This document shows, piece after piece, positions 5,852 through 17,655 of a stretch of DNA of 52,073 nt (position 1 is the first letter of the stretch; each line of letters opens with the position of its first letter). A model generated the notes under the pieces. It searched no databases. It worked only from the letters and a program-made list of their open reading frames with translations, and was not told the origin of the DNA. This DNA is from Oscillospiraceae bacterium (lineage in GTDB: Bacteria; Bacillota; Clostridia; Oscillospirales; Ruminococcaceae), in contig JAAVID010000071.1 of assembly GCA_014799395.1 (NCBI GenBank), positions 1 through 52,073 of the forward strand, written 5' to 3'. A program made the position numbers and the translations under genes.

Positions 5852-6086
5852 TTATCTTCGCGGACGTGTTTGGGGTACGTCCTGTTTCCGTTGCTGTTCG
5901 ATAAGTTTTGAGATGTAGTCGCCTTGCGAAATCTTGTTGTACGTTTCGGAAATGTCGGAATACTCTTTTAAGAGAGCAGCACACTTATTATAATGTGCCT
6001 TGATGGGTGCAGCTTTCTGCTTCGTTTCAACGATAACCCCATTGAGGTAGTCCAAGTCCGAACGGCTTCCAATATTTTTCTGCGTA
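5852..6086 (-). pseudogene. C-terminal tail of a serine-recombinase-element relaxase (remnant)
   Basis: The frame reading KNIGSRSDLDYLNG onward to KLIEQQRKQDVPQTRPRR resembles the C-terminal end of the mobilisation relaxases that usually precede TnpW and TnpX. It is open upstream only because it runs antisense into the Pre/Mob copy at 6087. The N-terminal bulk of the protein is therefore lost at the junction. The family assignment is from memory of this gene order and is less certain than the truncation. Confidence 0.5.
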
Positions 6087-7343
6087 AGTATTTCCCATAA
6101 CAACAGAAAATTTGTCGCAAAAAATGTGGACGAAAAACGCGTCAAGGATAATGTAATCTTGTGCTGCGAAAATCTAAAATATGTTTATGATGATCTGTTC
6201 GGTGCGGCGTTGGCAGAGTACAATGCCAAACAGAAAAGAAAAGACCGCCGCATCGAAAACTACCTTGACCACATCGAGAGCGGCAAGCAGGAGAAGCCGT
6301 TCTATGAACTTATCTTTCAGATCGGCAACAAGGATGACACTCCGTGCAGAGCTCGTGATGCCGAGGTTGCCACAAGTATTTTGCGCGAGTATTACGATGT
6401 TTTTCTGAAACGTAATCCACACATCAGAGTGTTTAATGCTGTTATACATCTTGATGAAGCTACTCCGCATTTACACGTTGACTTCGTTCCGTTCGCAACC
6501 GGGCAGAGCCGTGGATTATCTACCCGCAACTCTTTGAGCAAGGCTCTGGAGCAGCAAGGGTTTTCGGCAAAGACTAATCTTGAAACTCCCGCCAAGCAGT
6601 GGACGGATTTTGAGAAACAGCAGCTTGCAGAAATTATGCACAAGCGCGGCATTGAATGGGAGCAGCTTGGAACTCACAACGAACATCTCTCTGTTATTGA
6701 CTTCAAAAAACAGGAGCGCGCGAAAGAGGTCGAACATTTAGAGGGTGAGATAAAAAGCAACGAACTTATATTGGGATACCGGAAAGAACTGCTTGACGGT
6801 ATTGAGCAAGTTATTGATAAACTCGATGCCGAGTATCAAAAGAAAAATTCCGAAGTTGAGCGCCTTGACACCGAGATAACCCAAAAGGAAAACGATCTTG
6901 CCGAAACGACCGCCGCTGTTACCGAAAATCAAGCTCTGATCGAGCAGTCCGCCAAAAAGATGATCGCACTCAAAGAGGTTGACGAGATACAAGTCAAGAA
7001 AACGTTGTTCGGCGGAAATGTTACCGTTTCCCAGACGGATTATGATAATTTGTCGAACCTTGCAAAGAAGCAGATCGCTGCCGAGAGCAAGGAACACAAG
7101 CTCACGGAAGAAAATGCAGAACTGAAAAAAGAAAATGACGCACTACAAGGTGAAAACAAAACTCTCCGCGAAAAAGTCCAAGCTGCAAGGTCTTTGCAAA
7201 ATTCCTTTTCGGCTTTGCAAAGAGAATTAGAGAGTTGGAAACAGCGGTACAGGAAAGTGATCGAGTTTATAGAAAATCTCGGCTTAAAGGATAAGTTGGA
7301 AAAGTTTTTGCACCCGGTCACGCAAGTCAAGAGAGGACGGTAA
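6087..7343 (+). pseudogene. 5'-truncated Pre/Mob (MobV) relaxase, copy 1
   Basis: The frame matches the intact relaxase at 14748-16040 almost residue for residue (HLDEATPHLHVDFVPFATGQ, TRNSLSKALEQQGF, GTHNEHLSV, the coiled-coil region and the C-terminal LEKFLHPVTQVKRGR). It lacks the first 11 or so codons: homology starts abruptly at SISHNNRKF (6087), where a fragment of another element is joined. The only start left is GTG at 6126, without a good ribosome binding site, giving 405 residues against 430. The histidine triad of the catalytic domain is retained, but initiation is doubtful. A terminator follows at 7381. Confidence 0.8.
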
Positions 7344-7380
7344 ACCTCGTTTTTTGCTTTACCTGTTAATTCTTGAGATT

Positions 7381-7496: not shown

Positions 7497-8491
7497 ATGA
7501 ACTATATAGGTTCAAAGTACTCCCTTATGGAGTTTTTAAAGAATACAATCGTTGATGTTACTGGATATACAAACGGTGAGGGTATTACCTTTGCCGATCT
7601 GTTCGCGGGAACTGGTGTTGTTGGAACGACATATAAGGAAATGGGTTATGATGTTATCGCGAACGATATTCAATATTACAGTTATGTATTGAACAAGCAT
7701 CTGATTGAGAATATTCCTGTAACCGACGATTCACCGCTCGATTATCTCAACTCTTTGGAGGGTATTGAGGGTTTCGTATATAACAACTACTGTGCCGGAG
7801 CAAGCGAACGTAACTACTTTACCGATATCAACGGTCAGAGGTGCGATGCGATCAGAACCAAGCTTGAAGAAATGCGCGGAAAGGATATCGATGATTCGGT
7901 GTACTTCTATTTTCTTGCAAGCCTTGTGAATTCTATTGATAAGTACGCTAATACTGCCTCTGTTATGGTGCGTTCCTAAAGCATATTAAAAAATCGGCAC
8001 AGAAAGATTTTAAGTTAGAGCTTCTTCCGGTGATTTCGGGGAATAAAGGTAAGGTGTATAATAAAGACATAAATGTTCTTATCAAAGAAATTCGCGGCGA
8101 TGTTCTCTACCTTGATCCTCCGTATAACGCGCGCCAATATTGTACAAATTATCACGTTCTTGAAACCATAGCAAGGTATGATAACCCAGTTTTGAACGGT
8201 AAAACCGGACTGCGTGACTACTCGGATCAAAAAAGCAAATTCTGTTCAAAAAGGACGGTCGAAAAAGCATTTGACGATTTGATCTCAAATGCCGATTTTA
8301 AGTACATATTCTTAAGTTATAACAATGAGGGCTTGATGAGCCTTGATACGATAAAAGCTATTATGTCGAAATACGGCAAATATGCTTGTTATACTCAGGA
8401 TTATCGCCGTTTTAAAGCCGACAAAGACGAAAGCCGTCAGATCGCCGCAGATACCACCACAGAATATATTCATTGTCTGATAAAGGAGTAA
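7497..8491 (+). pseudogene. D12-class adenine-N6 DNA methyltransferase, frameshifted (M1)
   Basis: The start is ATG with AAAAGGTG upstream. The N-terminal half has MNYIGSK and the SAM-binding motif FADLFAGTGVVG. It ends prematurely at 7979 after SVMVRS. Restoring one T near 7963 (GTTATGG to GTTTATGG) gives SVYGAFLKHIKK and then joins the second half, which carries the catalytic LDPPYNARQY and the NYHVLETIA motif typical of D12 enzymes. The complete product would be about 331 residues, normal for the family. It is the first gene of a two-methylase operon facing a restriction gene; as sequenced, the active site is separated from the SAM site. Sequencing error, phase-variable slippage or a true null mutation cannot be told apart here. 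Confidence 0.85.
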
Positions 8492-8494
8492 GCT

Positions 8495-9283
8495 GTGTCA
8501 AGATATAACGATATTGATATGGGTCGCTGGAAGGACTATTCGGATATATTCACCGATTCACTTTGGATTATTGAAAAGCGAGATAATTCGGGCGCGCATA
8601 GCGGTGACTATCATGGGAATTTTGTTCCGCAAATTCCTCATCAACTATTTACTCGTTACACCAAAAAAGGAGATTGGATTCTGGATCCGTTTATGGGAAG
8701 CGGAACTTCGTTGATCGAAGCCTAAAGAATGGGAAGAAATTCAATCGGTGTTGAGCTACAGGAAGTCGTCGCAAAAGAAGCAGCAAATCGTATGGTTACC
8801 GAAAGAAATGATTTTTGCCAAGCCAGACCTTTTATCGGAAACAGTCGCACTGTTGATATTGAAAAACTTTTGCAGAAAGTTGAAATTAAAAAGGTACAAT
8901 TTGTGATAATGCATCCGCCGTATTGGGATATTGTGAAATTTTCGGATAACCCCGAAGATTTGTCTAATACAGCGACTTTAGAGGATTTTTTACATTCATT
9001 TGGCAATGTGATTGATAATACAACAAAAGTGTTGGATAAAAATCGCTACTGCGCTGTGGTAATAGGTGACAAGTACGCTAACAGTCAGATCGTGCCGCTT
9101 GGTTTTCACTGTATGAATCTGTTTACCGAACGCGGTTTTATTCTAAAGGCGATCCTTGTCAAGAATTTCGATGAAACAAAGGGAAAAGCCAACAAGCAAG
9201 CTATCTGGAGATACCGTGCGCTGGCTTCGGATTTTTATATTTTCAAGCATGAGTATATTTTTGTGTTTAAAAAGCCGTGGTAA
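8495..9283 (+). pseudogene. N4C/N6A DNA methyltransferase with in-frame stop (M2)
   Basis: The GTG start at 8495 lies four bases after the M1 stop and has AAAGGAG upstream. The first part has a SAM-binding motif DPFMGSGTSLIEA and then TAA at 8723-8725. The same frame continues at once as RMGRNSIGVEL, followed by the catalytic motif HPPYWDIVKFS, to 9283. Relatives usually read EAQRMGRN or EAKRMGRN here, so CAA-to-TAA (or AAA-to-TAA) is the simplest explanation. The full protein would be 262 residues. Neither half alone holds both the SAM and catalytic motifs. With M1 it would provide the two strand-specific methylases often needed for an asymmetric recognition site. Confidence 0.85.
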
Positions 9284-9298
9284 GTGCCACGGCTTTTT
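9269..9298. terminator. bidirectional terminator between M2 and the KAP gene
   Basis: AAAAAGCCGTGG (9269-9280) pairs perfectly with CCACGGCTTTTT (9287-9298). The M2 stop codon lies in the loop. Both strands have U-runs, so it serves the two convergent operons. Confidence 0.88.
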
Positions 9299-9352
9299 CG
9301 GAATATGTAAAACTTAAGCCGATGCACTGAAAACACGCTTATTCCCTTGCTA

Positions 9353-11551
9353 CTATTCAATATTATCCTCATTTTTCCAGGTATCCAACGTTTCTTTTAT
9401 GCCTTTCAAGGTTATATTTCCATACTTATATAACCTTTGATCATTACGGTAGAACGCAACCGAAATATTCTGAACCTCTTGCGGCAGTTTATAAAAACTC
9501 TTGTCACATCGCATTTCCATCATTGTATTTAGGATTTGTTCTTTGGTAAGATATTTTTCATAATCGTTTTGCACCATATATTCTGCCAAATTGTTATATA
9601 CATCGGTGGAATACCTCAAAAATTTCAATATGTTAGATGGCACATTAAATGACTGGATAAAATATTCTCTAAAAAAATCGGGATTTATCTTTTCAAGCAA
9701 ATTAACAATCATTACCCAATTTGGCACATCATATAGATTCTGATTTTCTAGATAGAGATTAACCCTATTGTATAACGTCAGCTCTATTTTGTCAAGCTCG
9801 CTTTCTGTTATGACACTGTCCTCTTTATACCCCTTTTCCAACCTTTCATAATCCATTTCGATATATCTCATAGCAGGTATAAACGAAATGACACGTTTGA
9901 AATCATCACCACCAACTATGCTGTTCAAAAACTCAAAGCGTTCATTCCGCGGAATTGCATCAATCATTTTATACGATAAAAAAAGAAATTGCTGGAAAAC
10001 ATAAACACCTTCACTATCGTCCCCTAAGCATATAATATAAAACGAATCAAGTACCGCTAGCATAATTATTTTTGCACGTTCCTTTGAAAAATCGGATCTA
10101 ATAGCCATTATTTCGTCCATCAATTCAATAATTGTACCGTTACCATAATGTTTTACAAACGCATTTTTTATTTCTTCCAAAGAAAGTTCACTTTTTATTT
10201 TGATTATATCTGATTGCTTTATGGCAACAGAATTCAAATCCAAACTGAAATATCTTTCGAATTTATATGGATTACTTATATTGTTGTTTTTTATGGCATC
10301 GATTTTATTATAGGTTTCATAACAACTCGCACCTTCTTTAATCCCCCAAGAAGGGAATAAATACGCAAGACACGATGTAATGTTTTCAGTGATTATGTCA
10401 TAATCATCTTCAGAATACCCCAAATCTTTTAACCAACCTGTCATTTTCTCCTTAGAAATTACAGGCTCATTATAAATCTTCTTGATTATACGATCAACAG
10501 GACACGATCTATCCCTTTTTATCCACTCATAGATAGGGGGAAAAAGAATTTGTATAGTAGTAATCGCTGTCATATCCATAAAATCGACTTCAGATGCAAT
10601 AGCCGAAAGTTTTACTGATAGAGTATTGCAGATGCGGTTAATATCACGAATAGATTCAATAAATGGCTCACAACAAGTTGTGTAAGAACGCCTCCACATC
10701 ATATAATCAAATGAAGAATGATAATACGTCTCATATATAGAACTTAAATTTTGAATCATAATGTTGCTGAGTTGAGTTGTAGAAATCTTCGGTACTTCAA
10801 TAGGCATTTGGATTATTTTTTCTAAGTATGCCTCTCCGCTTCCATCCTGCACTTTCTCCAAAGCCTTAACTACTATTCCCTTATCAAATACAACCAGATA
10901 TCTGACTTTAGGGAAGTTCGCAACAGACGCAATAAGCTGAAAGACCTGACGTATTTGGTCGTTACTAAGCCTATCTACATCATCGATTATAATTAAAAAT
11001 TTATGGTTTTGTTCAGAACTATTTAGCATATCTATAATTTTCTGTTTTTGTGTAGATATGTCTGCACCCCGTTTTTGAAAATTACCGCCAACAACTTTTG
11101 TACCATTCTGAAGAATCGATGATAATGCCTTCCCAAACACGGGGATCGCTTCGACAAGCGAAAACAGCTCTGAATACGTTTCTAAAGCTTCTCCTATTTG
11201 CTTTAAAGCGCTTTCTTTTCTGCCAAATTTTTTCGATATCTTTTTAAATTCAGATGCAAGTCTTACAAAAAACTGAGATAAAAGTTGATCGCAACTTAAA
11301 AAATTCCAAGGTTCAAAATGAACGAGTATGAGTTTGTTGATTTCTTCTGTACAACTTTGCAAAGATTCTATCTCACTCTCAAGCATATTTACGATAGATG
11401 TCTTACCGCAGCCCCACTGTCCGTAAAGTCCAATAGTAAATGTTGTATCATTCTGTAAATTTAAAATAGATTTTGCAAGGGTTTTGGAAAAATTCCCTCT
11501 ATGCAACAAGTCTTCTTCACTTGAAAAAATGGGCTTATCGTCGTAATACAT
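9353..11551 (-). CDS. KAP-family P-loop NTPase
   Basis: The 732-residue protein has Walker A GQWGCGKTS (residues 44-52), the family's HFEPWNF motif (78-84) and Walker B IIDDVDRL (188-195), then the KAP sequence KVRYLVVFDK and an EAYLEKIIQMP segment. The long C-terminal half is helical and unassigned. KAP NTPases include animal Kidins220 and the phage-exclusion protein PifA, and bacterial members occur in defence loci. Between the Walker motifs, about residues 130-155, lies a weakly hydrophobic stretch where some KAP proteins carry membrane helices. The gene is downstream of the restriction gene on the same strand (94-base gap) and inside the terminator-bounded R-M cassette. A role in restriction is inferred from position only. 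Confidence 0.85.
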   Translation of the reverse strand: MYYDDKPIFSSEEDLLHRGNFSKTLAKSILNLQNDTTFTIGLYGQWGCGKTSIVNMLESEIESLQSCTEEINKLILVHFEPWNFLSCDQLLSQFFVRLASEFKKISKKFGRKESALKQIGEALETYSELFSLVEAIPVFGKALSSILQNGTKVVGGNFQKRGADISTQKQKIIDMLNSSEQNHKFLIIIDDVDRLSNDQIRQVFQLIASVANFPKVRYLVVFDKGIVVKALEKVQDGSGEAYLEKIIQMPIEVPKISTTQLSNIMIQNLSSIYETYYHSSFDYMMWRRSYTTCCEPFIESIRDINRICNTLSVKLSAIASEVDFMDMTAITTIQILFPPIYEWIKRDRSCPVDRIIKKIYNEPVISKEKMTGWLKDLGYSEDDYDIITENITSCLAYLFPSWGIKEGASCYETYNKIDAIKNNNISNPYKFERYFSLDLNSVAIKQSDIIKIKSELSLEEIKNAFVKHYGNGTIIELMDEIMAIRSDFSKERAKIIMLAVLDSFYIICLGDDSEGVYVFQQFLFLSYKMIDAIPRNERFEFLNSIVGGDDFKRVISFIPAMRYIEMDYERLEKGYKEDSVITESELDKIELTLYNRVNLYLENQNLYDVPNWVMIVNLLEKINPDFFREYFIQSFNVPSNILKFLRYSTDVYNNLAEYMVQNDYEKYLTKEQILNTMMEMRCDKSFYKLPQEVQNISVAFYRNDQRLYKYGNITLKGIKETLDTWKNEDNIE

Positions 11552-11645
11552 ACTTATTCTCCTATTAAACCACTAACACTTTCTAAAACATAACAACAAT
11601 ATTATATTTTTTTATTCGGATCAAAAGAGAGATGTTTTTTAAACT

Positions 11646-12212
11646 CTAACGGATCATACCAATAGCATCCTCGCAGCCGTTTTCTTCACCGCTATGAATT
11701 GCACTGCCTTTGTAGTACGACATTGGATATCCGAGCTTTTTGGCTTCAAAACGTATGTTTGTCCGCTTACATTCCTTGCAGAACTGCCGTTTTGCATCGT
11801 TTGCGGGTTTACTCAGTGGCTGAAAATCAGAAATCTTCTGATCTTCGTTTTTCATAACCCTGTCCTCATTCTTGCGACCGTTTTTATGATCACATTCTGG
11901 ATTTGAAGTTCCCAGAACGACACACCGCTGTGAACATATTTCTCTCTTAATATCTGAGCGTATATGCTGAGAGTAATCGCCGCTATTAAACCCGTTAGTC
12001 CGTATACGATCTATGCCGTTACCAGGTGTAATCGACTTATCAAACTCAACTATGTAGCGTTTGGCGAGGGTGGACTCCCTTCTCGCCCAAGAAGCACCAT
12101 TGCCGAATTTAAGTTCTGCATACTCATCAACAAACTCCGAAGCGTTTACCCAACGGCTTACCCCGTTTTCATTGGGTTGATCCAGCTTTAAGAATAACTC
12201 TGTTTTAGTCAT
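11646..12212 (-). CDS. HNH-type Type II restriction endonuclease (predicted)
   Basis: The preferred start is ATG at 12212, seven bases after GGAGG; a TTG at 12218 is also in frame. The 188-residue product has a zinc-bound HNH arrangement: Cys93 and Cys97, then ECDHKNGRK with His109, then Asn138 in PANDAKRQ, then Cys145 and Cys148 (CKEC). The following TNIRFEAKKLGYPMSYYKG resembles conserved ends of HNH restriction enzymes. The gene starts two bases after the controller-protein stop and is opposed by two methylase genes, the standard layout of a Type II (probably IIS) system. Recognition sequence cannot be predicted. No disruption is visible in this gene, in contrast to both methylases. Confidence 0.72.
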   Translation of the reverse strand: MTKTELFLKLDQPNENGVSRWVNASEFVDEYAELKFGNGASWARRESTLAKRYIVEFDKSITPGNGIDRIRTNGFNSGDYSQHIRSDIKREICSQRCVVLGTSNPECDHKNGRKNEDRVMKNEDQKISDFQPLSKPANDAKRQFCKECKRTNIRFEAKKLGYPMSYYKGSAIHSGEENGCEDAIGMIR

Positions 12213-12214
12213 AA

Positions 12215-12424
12215 TCAATCCTCCAAGAACAATTTATAAGTTTCAACTTCCAGTGCGTCCGCAATTCGCTGAATATTTTCAAGCGCAATGCTGCGTTGAA
12301 ATCGTTCAACATCGCTGATGTATGTTCTGTGCAAACCACTCAACTCCGCCAGCTTCTCTTGTGAAATGCCTTTTTTATTACGGTATTTGCGGACGTTTGT
12401 ACCAAACACCTTTACAATATCCAT
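12215..12424 (-). CDS. XRE-type controller (C) protein of the R-M system
   Basis: This 69-residue protein is nearly all one helix-turn-helix domain (FGTNVRKYRNKKGISQEKLAELSGLHRTYISDVERF, split here over helices 1-3) and ends IADALEVETYKLFLED, which matches the size and pattern of C proteins. These dimers activate their own operon and then repress it, delaying the nuclease until the host is methylated. A candidate operator (AGACTT-N10-AAGTCT) lies 27 bases upstream of its start. It is translationally close to the restriction gene. Confidence 0.82.
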   Translation of the reverse strand: MDIVKVFGTNVRKYRNKKGISQEKLAELSGLHRTYISDVERFQRSIALENIQRIADALEVETYKLFLED

Positions 12425-13100: not shown

Positions 13101-13730
13101 ATGTCAAATAATTATCGCTTGATTGATGAAAAAAATTGGGAACGCGCTATGCATTGTATGGTTTTCAAGAACAGTGTTGAGCCTGCTTTTTGTGTTACCT
13201 TTGAGGCGGATATTACAAATTTCAAAAGAAAGGTCAAAGAACAGGGGCTGTCATTCACCCTTTCAATGGTTTACGCTGTTTGTAAATGCGCTAATGAGAT
13301 TGAGGCTTTCAGATACAGATTTCTTGACGGCAAGGTGGTCTTGTTTGACAAAATCGATACGGCATTTACTTATCTTAATGCCGAAACCGAATTGTTTAAG
13401 GTTGTAAATGTTCCTATGCTTGATAATATCAAAGACTATGTAGAATTAGCCGCCAAAACCGCACAAGAGCAAAAAGAATATTTTACTGGACCGCTCGGAA
13501 ATGATGTATTTCAATGTTCTCCAATGCCTTGGGTGACCTATACTCATATTTCTCATACCAATTCCGGAAAAAAGGATAATGCCACTCCCTTGTTTGATTG
13601 GGGCAAATACTATGAAAAAGACGGAAAGCTCTTTATCCCTGTCTCTGTACAGGCTCATCATTCATTTGCAGACGGGCTGCATATAGGGTTGTTTGCTCAC
13701 AAACTGCAAAAGTTTTTCGATGAATTTTAA
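13101..13730 (+). CDS. CAT-family O-acetyltransferase
   Basis: The 209-residue protein matches the length and pattern of Type A chloramphenicol acetyltransferases: an N-terminal NWERAMHCMVF segment, a central CSPMPWVTYTHI segment and the active-site region AHHSFADG with the catalytic histidine. These trimeric cytoplasmic enzymes transfer acetyl from acetyl-CoA to chloramphenicol; many chromosomal relatives act on other substrates, so resistance is possible but not shown. The start is ATG with TTGGAGGA upstream. The gene is cargo of the guaA-inserted element and is followed 25 bases later by a hydrolase, probably in one transcript. Confidence 0.87.
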   Translation: MSNNYRLIDEKNWERAMHCMVFKNSVEPAFCVTFEADITNFKRKVKEQGLSFTLSMVYAVCKCANEIEAFRYRFLDGKVVLFDKIDTAFTYLNAETELFKVVNVPMLDNIKDYVELAAKTAQEQKEYFTGPLGNDVFQCSPMPWVTYTHISHTNSGKKDNATPLFDWGKYYEKDGKLFIPVSVQAHHSFADGLHIGLFAHKLQKFFDEF

Positions 13731-14740: not shown

Positions 14741-14747
14741 TTTAAAT

Positions 14748-16040
14748 TTACCGTCCTCTCTTAATTTGCGTGACCGGATGTAAAAACTTCTCCAACTTAT
14801 CCTTTAAGCCGAGATTTTCTATAAACTCGATCACTTTCTTATACCGCTGTTTCCAACTTTCCAATTCTCTCTGCAAAGCTGAAAAAGAATTCCGGAGCGA
14901 CTGTGCTGCGCGAACATTTTCCCGAAGAGCGTTGTTCTCGGAGGACAGCTTCTCATTTTCTTTTTTCAGTTCTGCGTTTTCTTCAATGAGCTTGTGTTCC
15001 TTGCCCTCGTCCGCGATCTGCTTTTTCGCCAGATCGGTCAGCTTCTCATAATCGTCCTCCGCAACCGTTACCTTGCCACCGAAGATCGTCTTGCCTGTTT
15101 CGATATGGTCAATGGAATTGATCTTTACAACCTTATGGATACACTCACCAAGGATAGCCTGTTTTTCGGAAAGAGTAGCTTCCGCTTTGGCTTTGATGTT
15201 TTCCTTTTCGGAGATTTCGCTATCAAGTCGCTCAATCTCGAAACTTTTCTCTTGGTACTCGGCATCGATTTTATCAATTATCGCCTCGGCTTCCGTAACA
15301 GCTTGCTGCCGCCATTCAAGTATCAACTCCTTACTGCCGATCTCGCCGTCAAGCTGCTTAATCTCTTTCTCGCGCTCCTGTTTCTTGAAATCAAGGACAG
15401 ACAAGTGTTCGTTGTGAGTTCCAAGCTGCTCCCACTCAATTCCGCGCTTTTTCATAACCACGGAAAGCTGCTGCTTCTCAAAATCCGTCCATTGTTTGGC
15501 GGGAGTTTCGAGGTTAGTCTTTGCCAAAAATCCTTGCTGTTCCAAAGCCTTGCTCAAAGAGTTTCGAGTAGACAATCCGCGGCTCTGCCCAGTGGCAAAC
15601 GGAACGAAGTCAACGTGAAGGTGTGGTGTAGCTTCATCGAGATGTATAACAGCATTGAAAACTCTGATGTGCGGATTACGCTCCAAAAATTCAGCGTAGT
15701 ATTCGCGCAGAATATCTGTTGCAATCTCGGCATCACGACTTCCGCACGGAGTATCGTCCTTGTTGCCAATCTGGAAAATCAGTTCATAGAACGGTTTCTC
15801 CTGTTTTCCGTTCTCAATGTGGTCAAGATAATTTTCGATACGGCGGTCTTTTCTTTTCTGCTTAGAATTGTATTCCGCAAGCGCCGCGCCGAACAGATCA
15901 TCGTAAACATCTTTGAGATTTTCACAGCACAAGATCACATTATCCTTGACGCGCTTTTCGTCCACATTTTTCGCGACAAATTTCCGGTTGTTGTGGGAAA
16001 TACTTCCCTTGCCAATGCGTATGCTAATGGTCTTTTTCAT
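14748..16040 (-). CDS. Pre/Mob (MobV-family) relaxase, copy 2, intact
   Basis: The 430-residue protein starts MKKTISIRIGKGSISHNN, with a GAGAAAGGAGAA binding site. The catalytic domain contains AVIHLDEATPHLHVDFVP (the HxDExxPHxH histidine cluster of MobV/Pre relaxases), followed by GTHNEHLSV and a long coiled coil to the C-terminus. Such enzymes nick oriT and pilot the strand into a helper conjugation system. A candidate oriT inverted repeat lies just upstream at 16082-16137. It is about 85-90 percent like the truncated copy at 6087-7343 by eye, in opposite orientation. Confidence 0.93.
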   Translation of the reverse strand: MKKTISIRIGKGSISHNNRKFVAKNVDEKRVKDNVILCCENLKDVYDDLFGAALAEYNSKQKRKDRRIENYLDHIENGKQEKPFYELIFQIGNKDDTPCGSRDAEIATDILREYYAEFLERNPHIRVFNAVIHLDEATPHLHVDFVPFATGQSRGLSTRNSLSKALEQQGFLAKTNLETPAKQWTDFEKQQLSVVMKKRGIEWEQLGTHNEHLSVLDFKKQEREKEIKQLDGEIGSKELILEWRQQAVTEAEAIIDKIDAEYQEKSFEIERLDSEISEKENIKAKAEATLSEKQAILGECIHKVVKINSIDHIETGKTIFGGKVTVAEDDYEKLTDLAKKQIADEGKEHKLIEENAELKKENEKLSSENNALRENVRAAQSLRNSFSALQRELESWKQRYKKVIEFIENLGLKDKLEKFLHPVTQIKRGR

Positions 16041-16081
16041 CGGTTCTCCTTTCTCAAATGGTGGTGATGTGACGGTAACAA

Positions 16082-16137
16082 CGCAAAGTTACTTTTGACA
16101 CTTCACTCGTTCCTCGTTCGTATCAAAAGTCTTTGCG
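16082..16137. other. imperfect inverted repeat, candidate oriT
   Basis: CGCAAAGTTACTTTTGACAC (16082-16101) pairs with GTATCAAAAGTCTTTGCG (16120-16137) over 18 positions with a two-base gap; the loop holds two ACTCGTTCCTCGTTC-type half repeats. It sits between the relaxase start and the small membrane gene. MobV-type oriT sites are inverted repeats just upstream of the mob gene. Attenuation of relaxase expression is the alternative. Confidence 0.5.
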
Positions 16138-16187
16138 GCAAAGGGGCGTTAGCACCCCCTCTGCACTCTCCCGCTCTGCACCTGTGC

Positions 16188-16346
16188 TTAATCAAACAGC
16201 CCACAGTCGGAACACTGATTATCTTCATAGAGTTCCCAGAAGGTCATCGGCGGTTTCCGAGCCGTCCGCTTCTTTGTGCGTGTGAGAAGATATGCTGCTC
16301 CTGCCGCGAACGAGATCGCCGCTACCGTGAAAATAATTTGTTTCAT
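16188..16346 (-). CDS. 52-residue single-span membrane protein
   Basis: The frame begins ATG at 16346, with GTGAGGT seven bases upstream. It has one hydrophobic segment (IIFTVAAISFAAGAAYLL) directly after a short N-terminus, then a basic stretch TRTKKRTARK, and ends DNQCSDCGLFD with a CxxC pair. It lies upstream of oriT and the relaxase on the same strand. No family is recognised. The well-placed ribosome site, clean topology and CxxC make it likely to be real. Confidence 0.6.
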   Translation of the reverse strand: MKQIIFTVAAISFAAGAAYLLTRTKKRTARKPPMTFWELYEDNQCSDCGLFD

Positions 16347-16402
16347 AGTAAAACCTCACTTTCAAGATTGAAAAAATATATAATAGAACTGCCAAAAATG
16401 AT

Positions 16403-16562
16403 GTACAAGGTGTACGAAGCCTGTCAAGCCGCTTCACAAGACGGATTTTTCTTTTTTCAATAGTGTACAATGGATGTACGAGTTTGTACATCTCCGTACA
16501 TCACTGTACGCCTCAAAAATGCCTGTCACCCCCTCTTGTAATGCGGAATGTACACCCCGTAC
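16403..16562. repeat. array of nine GTAC sites, five helically phased
   Basis: GTAC occurs at 16403, 16412, 16465, 16476, 16486, 16496, 16506, 16550 and 16559. The central five are spaced 11, 10, 10 and 10 bases, one helical turn, so they would sit on one face of the DNA; the outer pairs are spaced 9. On the minus strand the core reads as a tandem decamer GTAC-N4-AT. The 370-base gap between the small membrane gene and the HNH gene holds nothing else. It resembles iterons or an array operator. Confidence 0.65.
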
Positions 16563-16654
16563 ACCTTTTTTCAAGTTCTGATAAAAAATCTCTCAAAGCC
16601 CCGATCTTACCGCATAAATGTTGCTGTTTCATACATCGTTACAACAAAAAGCGG

Positions 16655-16683
16655 TTGCTTTTTTGTCGTGAATGTGGTATAAT
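16655..16683 (+). promoter_or_regulatory. promoter of the HNH gene
   Basis: TTGCTT (16655-16660) and TATAAT (16678-16683) with a 17-base spacer, 34 bases before the ATG. Confidence 0.7.
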
Positions 16684-16716
16684 ATGTATTATAGAAAGAA
16701 ATATGAGGAGCATTTT

Positions 16717-17655
16717 ATGGAATTCAAACTAAATGATTATCACCGAAATATCACAGATGAAGAATTGCTGAAAGACATTTTACGAGTTGCCAGTTCTTTG
16801 GGGAAAAACACCATTTCAAAAACAGAGTATGTAAAAAAGGGCGGAAAGTATCATTCTTCAACTATAGAGAAACGATTTGATGGGTGGTTAAATGCTCTAA
16901 GGAAGTGTGGTTTATCTCCAAGCAAAAACCAAATGCATTATGGCTCTGCAAATAATGCATGTATAACCACACAAGAATTGATAAGTGACTTACTTAGAGT
17001 ATCTGAAAAAATAGAAAAGAAAACTTTTTCTACCGGAGAATATAGCAAAAATGGAACATATTCGGTTAGTTCATACTTGAAGAAGTTTACAACGTGGAAC
17101 AATGCCTTGAAAATCTCCGGTTTAGAACCTTTTGATCACCCATTAGGCGGCAATACCAAAGTAAGCGAATATGCTTGCCTTGAGGAAATTGAGCGCATTT
17201 GGATAGCACTTGGCAGACAGCCTACAACAACGGATATAAAAAATGGTATTAGTAAATACTCGCTTCATACATATGAGCGGCGCTTTGGCTCGTGGAGAAA
17301 AGCACTTGAATTTTTTGTAGAATATATGAACGGAGAACAAGAGGTTGAAAAATCCGATGATTCAGATGATATACAACTTCCAGCTGAAACAACCACCAAA
17401 AGCGTTGATAATGTATTAGTTCACAAAACAAAACGAGATATAAATTTGCGATTGCGCTTTACAGTTATGAAACGTGATAATTTCAAATGTTGTATGTGTG
17501 GGAGATCGCCCGCGACTACATTAGGATTGGAATTGCAAATCGATCATATTATTCCTTGGTCTAAAGGCGGCGAAACTGCTATTGACAATTTACAGACATT
17601 ATGCAGTGACTGTAATTTGGGGAAAAGTAATCTGTCCGAAAATGATCAAATGTGA
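16717..17655 (+). CDS. HNH endonuclease with homing-endonuclease-associated repeats
   Basis: The start is ATG at 16717, with GAGGAGC five bases upstream (longer upstream reading is not needed). The 312-residue protein has three repeats of about 60 residues, each with a pattern like KRFDGWLNALRKCGL, KKFTTWNNALKISGL and RRFGSWRKALEFF, the DNA-binding repeat found with homing nucleases. The C-terminus is a zinc HNH domain: FKCCMCG, LQIDHIIPWSKGG and LCSDCNLGKSN. It would cut double-stranded DNA at a specific site. It has its own promoter and terminator and stands alone among mobilisation genes. It may be homing, element-protecting or anti-competitor; nothing in the sequence decides. Confidence 0.82.
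   Translation: MEFKLNDYHRNITDEELLKDILRVASSLGKNTISKTEYVKKGGKYHSSTIEKRFDGWLNALRKCGLSPSKNQMHYGSANNACITTQELISDLLRVSEKIEKKTFSTGEYSKNGTYSVSSYLKKFTTWNNALKISGLEPFDHPLGGNTKVSEYACLEEIERIWIALGRQPTTTDIKNGISKYSLHTYERRFGSWRKALEFFVEYMNGEQEVEKSDDSDDIQLPAETTTKSVDNVLVHKTKRDINLRLRFTVMKRDNFKCCMCGRSPATTLGLELQIDHIIPWSKGGETAIDNLQTLCSDCNLGKSNLSENDQM

Follow-up and report, generated by a model that had tools for sequence, protein, structure and literature searches.

How could a bacterium survive with an active restriction nuclease and no methylation to protect its own DNA? The question is raised by a Type II restriction-modification (R-M) cassette in an Oscillospiraceae bacterium (assembly GCA_014799395.1, contig JAAVID010000071.1, positions 1 to 52,073 of the forward strand; this whole stretch of 52,073 nucleotides is called the window). 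A sequence-only reading had described the cassette as having an intact nuclease gene (R) and controller gene (C) beside two broken methylase genes (M1 and M2). The family matches of R, M1, M2, and C confirmed an R-M cassette with a controller; C and R lie on one strand and M1 and M2 on the other, and the surrounding region also carries mobilization and recombinase genes. However, R carries a lesion of its own, and we think it likely that this is an ordinary Type II R-M cassette that has recently died, all three of its enzyme genes being damaged.

R (11646–12212, minus strand) is a member of the ICEA/NlaIII nuclease family, as indicated by its PF05315 match (200.9 bits, E = 2.5e-59, profile positions 1–186 of 218). 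The end of the profile is unmatched in the window, whereas the corresponding gene of G019, a genome of the same genus, extends to profile position 203. Judging from the two reading frames, a frame change occurs at about 11668–11670: the R frame passes through GCE and then departs, and the tail GCYWYDPLEFKKHL persists in a second frame. This conserved tail (CYWYDPLEFKKHL...) is still readable on the same strand at 11602–11667. Gathering relatives through R gave 55 loci; at five of these (L032, L074, L076, L077, and L075), R is not in one frame, and the remaining 50 full-length genes all have a CxGC[YF] tail that is lacking from the R frame of the window. In those 50, the motif is followed by W in 48, Y in 49, and P in all, such that WYDP is found in nearly every one. 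The lost tail carries half of two conserved CxxC pairs. Alignment of the nuclease to its homologues thus gives a divided answer: the DH motif is kept, but the conserved C-terminal tail is gone, and we infer that R has probably lost its activity. The sequence-only reading had seen no lesion in R and had confined the damage to the methylases; neither statement held, and a lesion near the end of the nuclease gene is easily overlooked without relatives to compare. From its name, ICEA, we take PF05315 to be the family of IceA1. A passage in PMC2816704 describes IceA1 as a functional isoschizomer of NlaIII, and by analogy the specificity of the cassette would be CATG.

The two methylase lesions were found as they had been predicted. 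M1 (7497–8491, plus strand) is a D12-class adenine methylase gene, also matched by the PADLOC model MTase_II, whose two pieces each match PF02086 but sit in different frames: the first (7497–7979) covers profile positions 1–134, and the second, readable from about 7964 to 8491, positions 143–252 of 253. A net change of one base near 7963–7965 accounts for the shift. M2 (8495–9283, plus strand), an N6_N4 methylase gene, is broken by an in-frame TAA at 8723–8725 into two pieces, each of which matches PF01555. With a frame change in M1 and a stop in M2, the intact cognate methylase that a working NlaIII/IceA-type system needs is not present in the cassette. Synonymous sites were saturated in the first piece of M1, and the ratio of nonsynonymous to synonymous substitution rates (dN/dS) was replaced by a count of departures at columns that are at least 90% conserved among relatives. 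The M1 pieces departed at 1 of 45 and 0 of 54 such columns, and the M2 pieces at 0 of 38 and 1 of 48, both changes being conservative. Because the methylase pieces are otherwise so well conserved, the lesions look young, and the decay, if real, would be recent.

That the methylase pieces, lesions aside, are as conserved as those of relatives also speaks for a different explanation, namely, that the lesions arose in sequencing or assembly, or reflect a collapsed strain mixture, and that the cassette is whole and working. Two of the three lesions are net one-base indels, which are a common type of error, and the assembly is still a draft in 112 contigs. As a control for error, the genome's own genes were compared with those of a relative, G020; 93 of 618 open frames of G020 had matches, and 38 passed the filter. 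Three of these 38 genes (15,416 amino acids) were flagged, but only one lesion was real, a frame change in L098 at about 16043–16633; the other two were a shadow frame, with its changes at codon position 1, and a presumed endonuclease III gene, whose stop is its natural end. At the control rate, three lesions in M1, M2, and R, which together span 2.36 kb, have a probability of about 2e-5, or about 5e-4 using the 95% upper bound that would apply had none been seen in the control; the control is small, however, its 38 genes may include shadow frames, and the lesions of a dying cassette may depend on one another. The reverse comparison, for lesions in G020, began with 541 frames, 100 of which had matches and 29 of which passed; the five flagged were two shadow frames, one unclear case, a genuine coding frame interrupted by a stop in G020, and the L098 gene. 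The real lesions in the two comparisons mean that ordinary genes of the genus do carry lesions. Error would also have to explain why the lesion in M2 is a stop codon that leaves the frame unchanged, and the lesions themselves contain no run of at least four identical bases and no short repeat, the nearest runs being A6 at 7988 and T4 at 11680. We therefore regard error as an unlikely explanation for the whole set.

The lack of runs and repeats, together with the failure to see a slippery heptamer at the lesions by eye, bears as well on the idea that frameshifting or readthrough yields full-length products from the broken genes, or that the halves of M1 work as two chains. Both halves of M1 are indeed well conserved. 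Nevertheless, frame changes in M1 and R and a stop in M2 would call for different devices at once, and most relatives have each gene in a single frame. Of the 55 relatives, 46 have M1 as a single open frame (a contig end truncates one of them); M1 is partly present in one, split in one (L075), and not found on the examined stretch in seven; the corresponding numbers for M2 are 40 (two cut by a contig end), two, three (L027, L066, and L075), and ten. Slippage or readthrough, which the sequence-only reading had offered, is hardly credible on these grounds.

The paradox in its original form requires an active nuclease, two dead methylases, and a cell kept alive by protection of some other kind. 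The DH motif kept in the R frame would agree with this, but the tail that carries half of the double CxxC set has been lost, the genome does contain CATG sites (469 in the 760 kb sampled), and no spare methylase of the M1 or M2 class was found; we consider this version very improbable. With R broken, no protection is needed, and an unprotected active nuclease is not implied. Thus, of three ways out originally proposed, an inactive nuclease is supported, slippage or readthrough is not, and sequencing error is possible but unlikely for all three lesions.

The search of the genome for a replacement DNA methylase resembling M1 or M2 was negative for these two classes (C5-type and Type I enzymes were not searched). 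The only other D12 methylase found, on contig C15, is intact; compared with the second piece of M1 (the only piece compared), it gave one significant BLASTP match, of 22 residues around DPPY. It belongs to an R-M-like pair that extends from position 67877 of that contig, in which its neighbor is a DUF6996/6997/7226 protein matching the Type II restriction model PDLC03513 (E = 3.4e-118). Rescue by this methylase was rejected, as the match to that piece is limited to the DPPY region and the gene has a restriction-type gene of its own beside it. Two other PF01555 matches, on contigs C27 and C64, look like RNA methylases, which we presume them to be.

Considered as a possible footprint of the cassette, CATG is underrepresented in the organism's own genome (observed/expected 0.32 over the 760 kb, window included, vs. 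0.72 in G020), but across the genus the ratio varies between 0.08 and 1.37, as sampled in pieces from 20 genomes (20 kb in 19 cases and 7.8 kb in one). Two genomes with low values, G001 (0.08) and G016 (0.14), both lack the ICEA family, and depletion does not track the ICEA gene. In the same 760 kb, GGCC is almost absent (0.04), and CCGG (0.26) and CTAG (0.27) are also low.

On the preferred reading, a cassette of the NlaIII/IceA kind would have died recently, each of the three enzyme genes having acquired one disabling lesion. Loss of the nuclease would have preceded or coincided with that of the second methylase, since the cell would otherwise have cut its own CATG sites; this order fits a study of R-M evolution, which notes that a cell may die if it loses the methylase when its nuclease is still functional (PMC4176335). 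C, together with a KAP/PifA-like gene behind the nuclease, is probably still whole. C (12215–12424, minus strand) encodes a short helix-turn-helix (HTH) protein immediately upstream of R, as expected of R-M controller proteins; it matches HTH_3 and the PADLOC model Control_protein (E = 2.7e-22), its frame is whole, and it departs at none of 14 conserved columns, in agreement with the earlier statement that the controller has no lesion. The cassette resembles the CATG-specific Type II systems NlaIII and IceA1-HpyI in combining a PF05315 nuclease with a D12-class methylase, but it differs in having M2, a C gene, and an accessory gene, and in that both methylases are broken too. Helicobacter pylori usually keeps the methylase. 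According to PMC13340068, mutations, including frameshifts, keep most iceA1 genes of H. pylori from yielding a working nuclease.

Several observations weigh against a dead cassette. The truncated R, with its DH motif, could retain some activity. R departs at 3 of 73 conserved columns, two of the changes being A to D and G to D, but at least three departures also occur in 7 of 49 relatives, and those in the window are thus mildly unusual and a hint only. The HNH match had a middling Z score, Foldseek alone gave no match at E ≤ 0.001, and a sequence search found no relative of R among solved structures. In the M1 and M2 pieces, the lesions alone indicate death, and nearly unchanged conserved columns would fit recent error as well. 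In some relatives, R stands without M1 or without M2, meaning that one methylase may be dispensable, and because the genome is 97.75% complete, a further methylase may lie in the missing part.

Of 43 genomes of the genus, only G019 and the genome that contains the window carry the ICEA family. In G019, the related locus (L025/L003/L020, on a single contig of 7,848 bases; L025 was counted as one with contig C54 because the length and the matches are the same) has the same C-R and M1-M2 plan, with pieces 79–95% identical to the window, but there all three enzyme genes are open. It also differs in having a 376-amino-acid gene without a Pfam match between R and M2, where the window has the KAP gene. 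This 376-amino-acid gene has a match somewhere on the examined stretch in 22 of the 55 relatives (L025 and 21 others); it gave no Pfam or PADLOC match at thresholds of 0.001 and 0.01, and its C-terminal part appears PD-(D/E)XK-like by eye.

Broken genes are not confined to the window. R is broken at 4 of the 55 loci (L032, L074, L076, and L077), three of which keep M1 and M2 each in one frame, and the contig of L076 shows M2 as its only methylase of the two; M2 is broken with R whole at two (L027 and L066), M1 being in one frame in both. Leaving out L075, a Gracilibacteria record with many in-frame stops that we take to reflect, in all likelihood, another genetic code, no locus of the 55 has M1 broken with R whole, and none has all three enzyme genes broken. 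L028 is among the loci that lack M1 or M2, and a different methylase gene adjoins its M2. Locus L043 (4196–5570) has R and M2, with no M1 found on the examined stretch, which suggests that M2 alone can protect; its neighbors resemble tryptophan synthesis genes by eye. No near copies of the cassette were found in viral_contigs (seven stretches fit a pattern, but none was confirmed) or, at the DNA level, among plasmid or phage records; a plasmid protein gave one distant match, at 39%.

The KAP-family P-loop gene (9353–11551, minus strand) is an open frame of 732 amino acids that follows C and R on their strand. It was considered as a nuclease and rejected, as its domain is that of a P-loop nucleoside triphosphatase (PF07693, E = 3.8e-48). 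Its PADLOC PifA match (E = 9.5e-69) spans residues 4–457 and model positions 7–459 of 720 only; the gene thus resembles PifA of plasmid F over that part, but its C-terminal third is unmatched. The sole PDB sequence match is weak (E = 0.0051), to a phage immunity repressor. The gene is present at none of the 55 related loci, although relatives occur in 5 of 147 other sampled genomes of the family, the best of which (G163, 46%) is itself divided between two open frames. PifA is described in PMC8594841 as an abortive-infection system active on T7, and the same paper doubts immunity as its main role. Going by its family, the KAP/PifA-like gene may still act in phage exclusion. The site behind C and R holds other accessory genes in a number of relatives, and it is conceivable, if decidedly unlikely, that the dead cassette is kept as a carrier, the KAP gene being driven by the controller's promoter so that an R-M remnant would have been turned into a regulated phage-exclusion gene.

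Elsewhere in the window, a CatA-like acetyltransferase gene (13101–13730, PF00302) scored 138.5 bits against the NCBIfam cut-off of 270 for type A chloramphenicol acetyltransferase (CAT), and resistance is therefore not implied. Mobilization (mob) genes at 6086–7344 and 14747–16005, in opposite orientation, flank the cassette and the CAT-like gene, and the two copies form an inverted repeat with four arm pairs of 123–697 nt at 75–85%; the copy at 6086–7344 is without the N-terminal residues of the other and looks truncated at a junction. A protein encoded at 16672–17655 has an HNH domain and three homing-endonuclease-associated repeats. No tRNA and no Rfam family were found in the window.

In answer to the opening question, no new mechanism is needed: the apparent paradox of a nuclease without protection is removed by the third lesion. 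If the cassette is dead, it would be a further case of R-M decay, and an unusually fresh one, with all three enzyme genes hit and the remaining sequence conserved.
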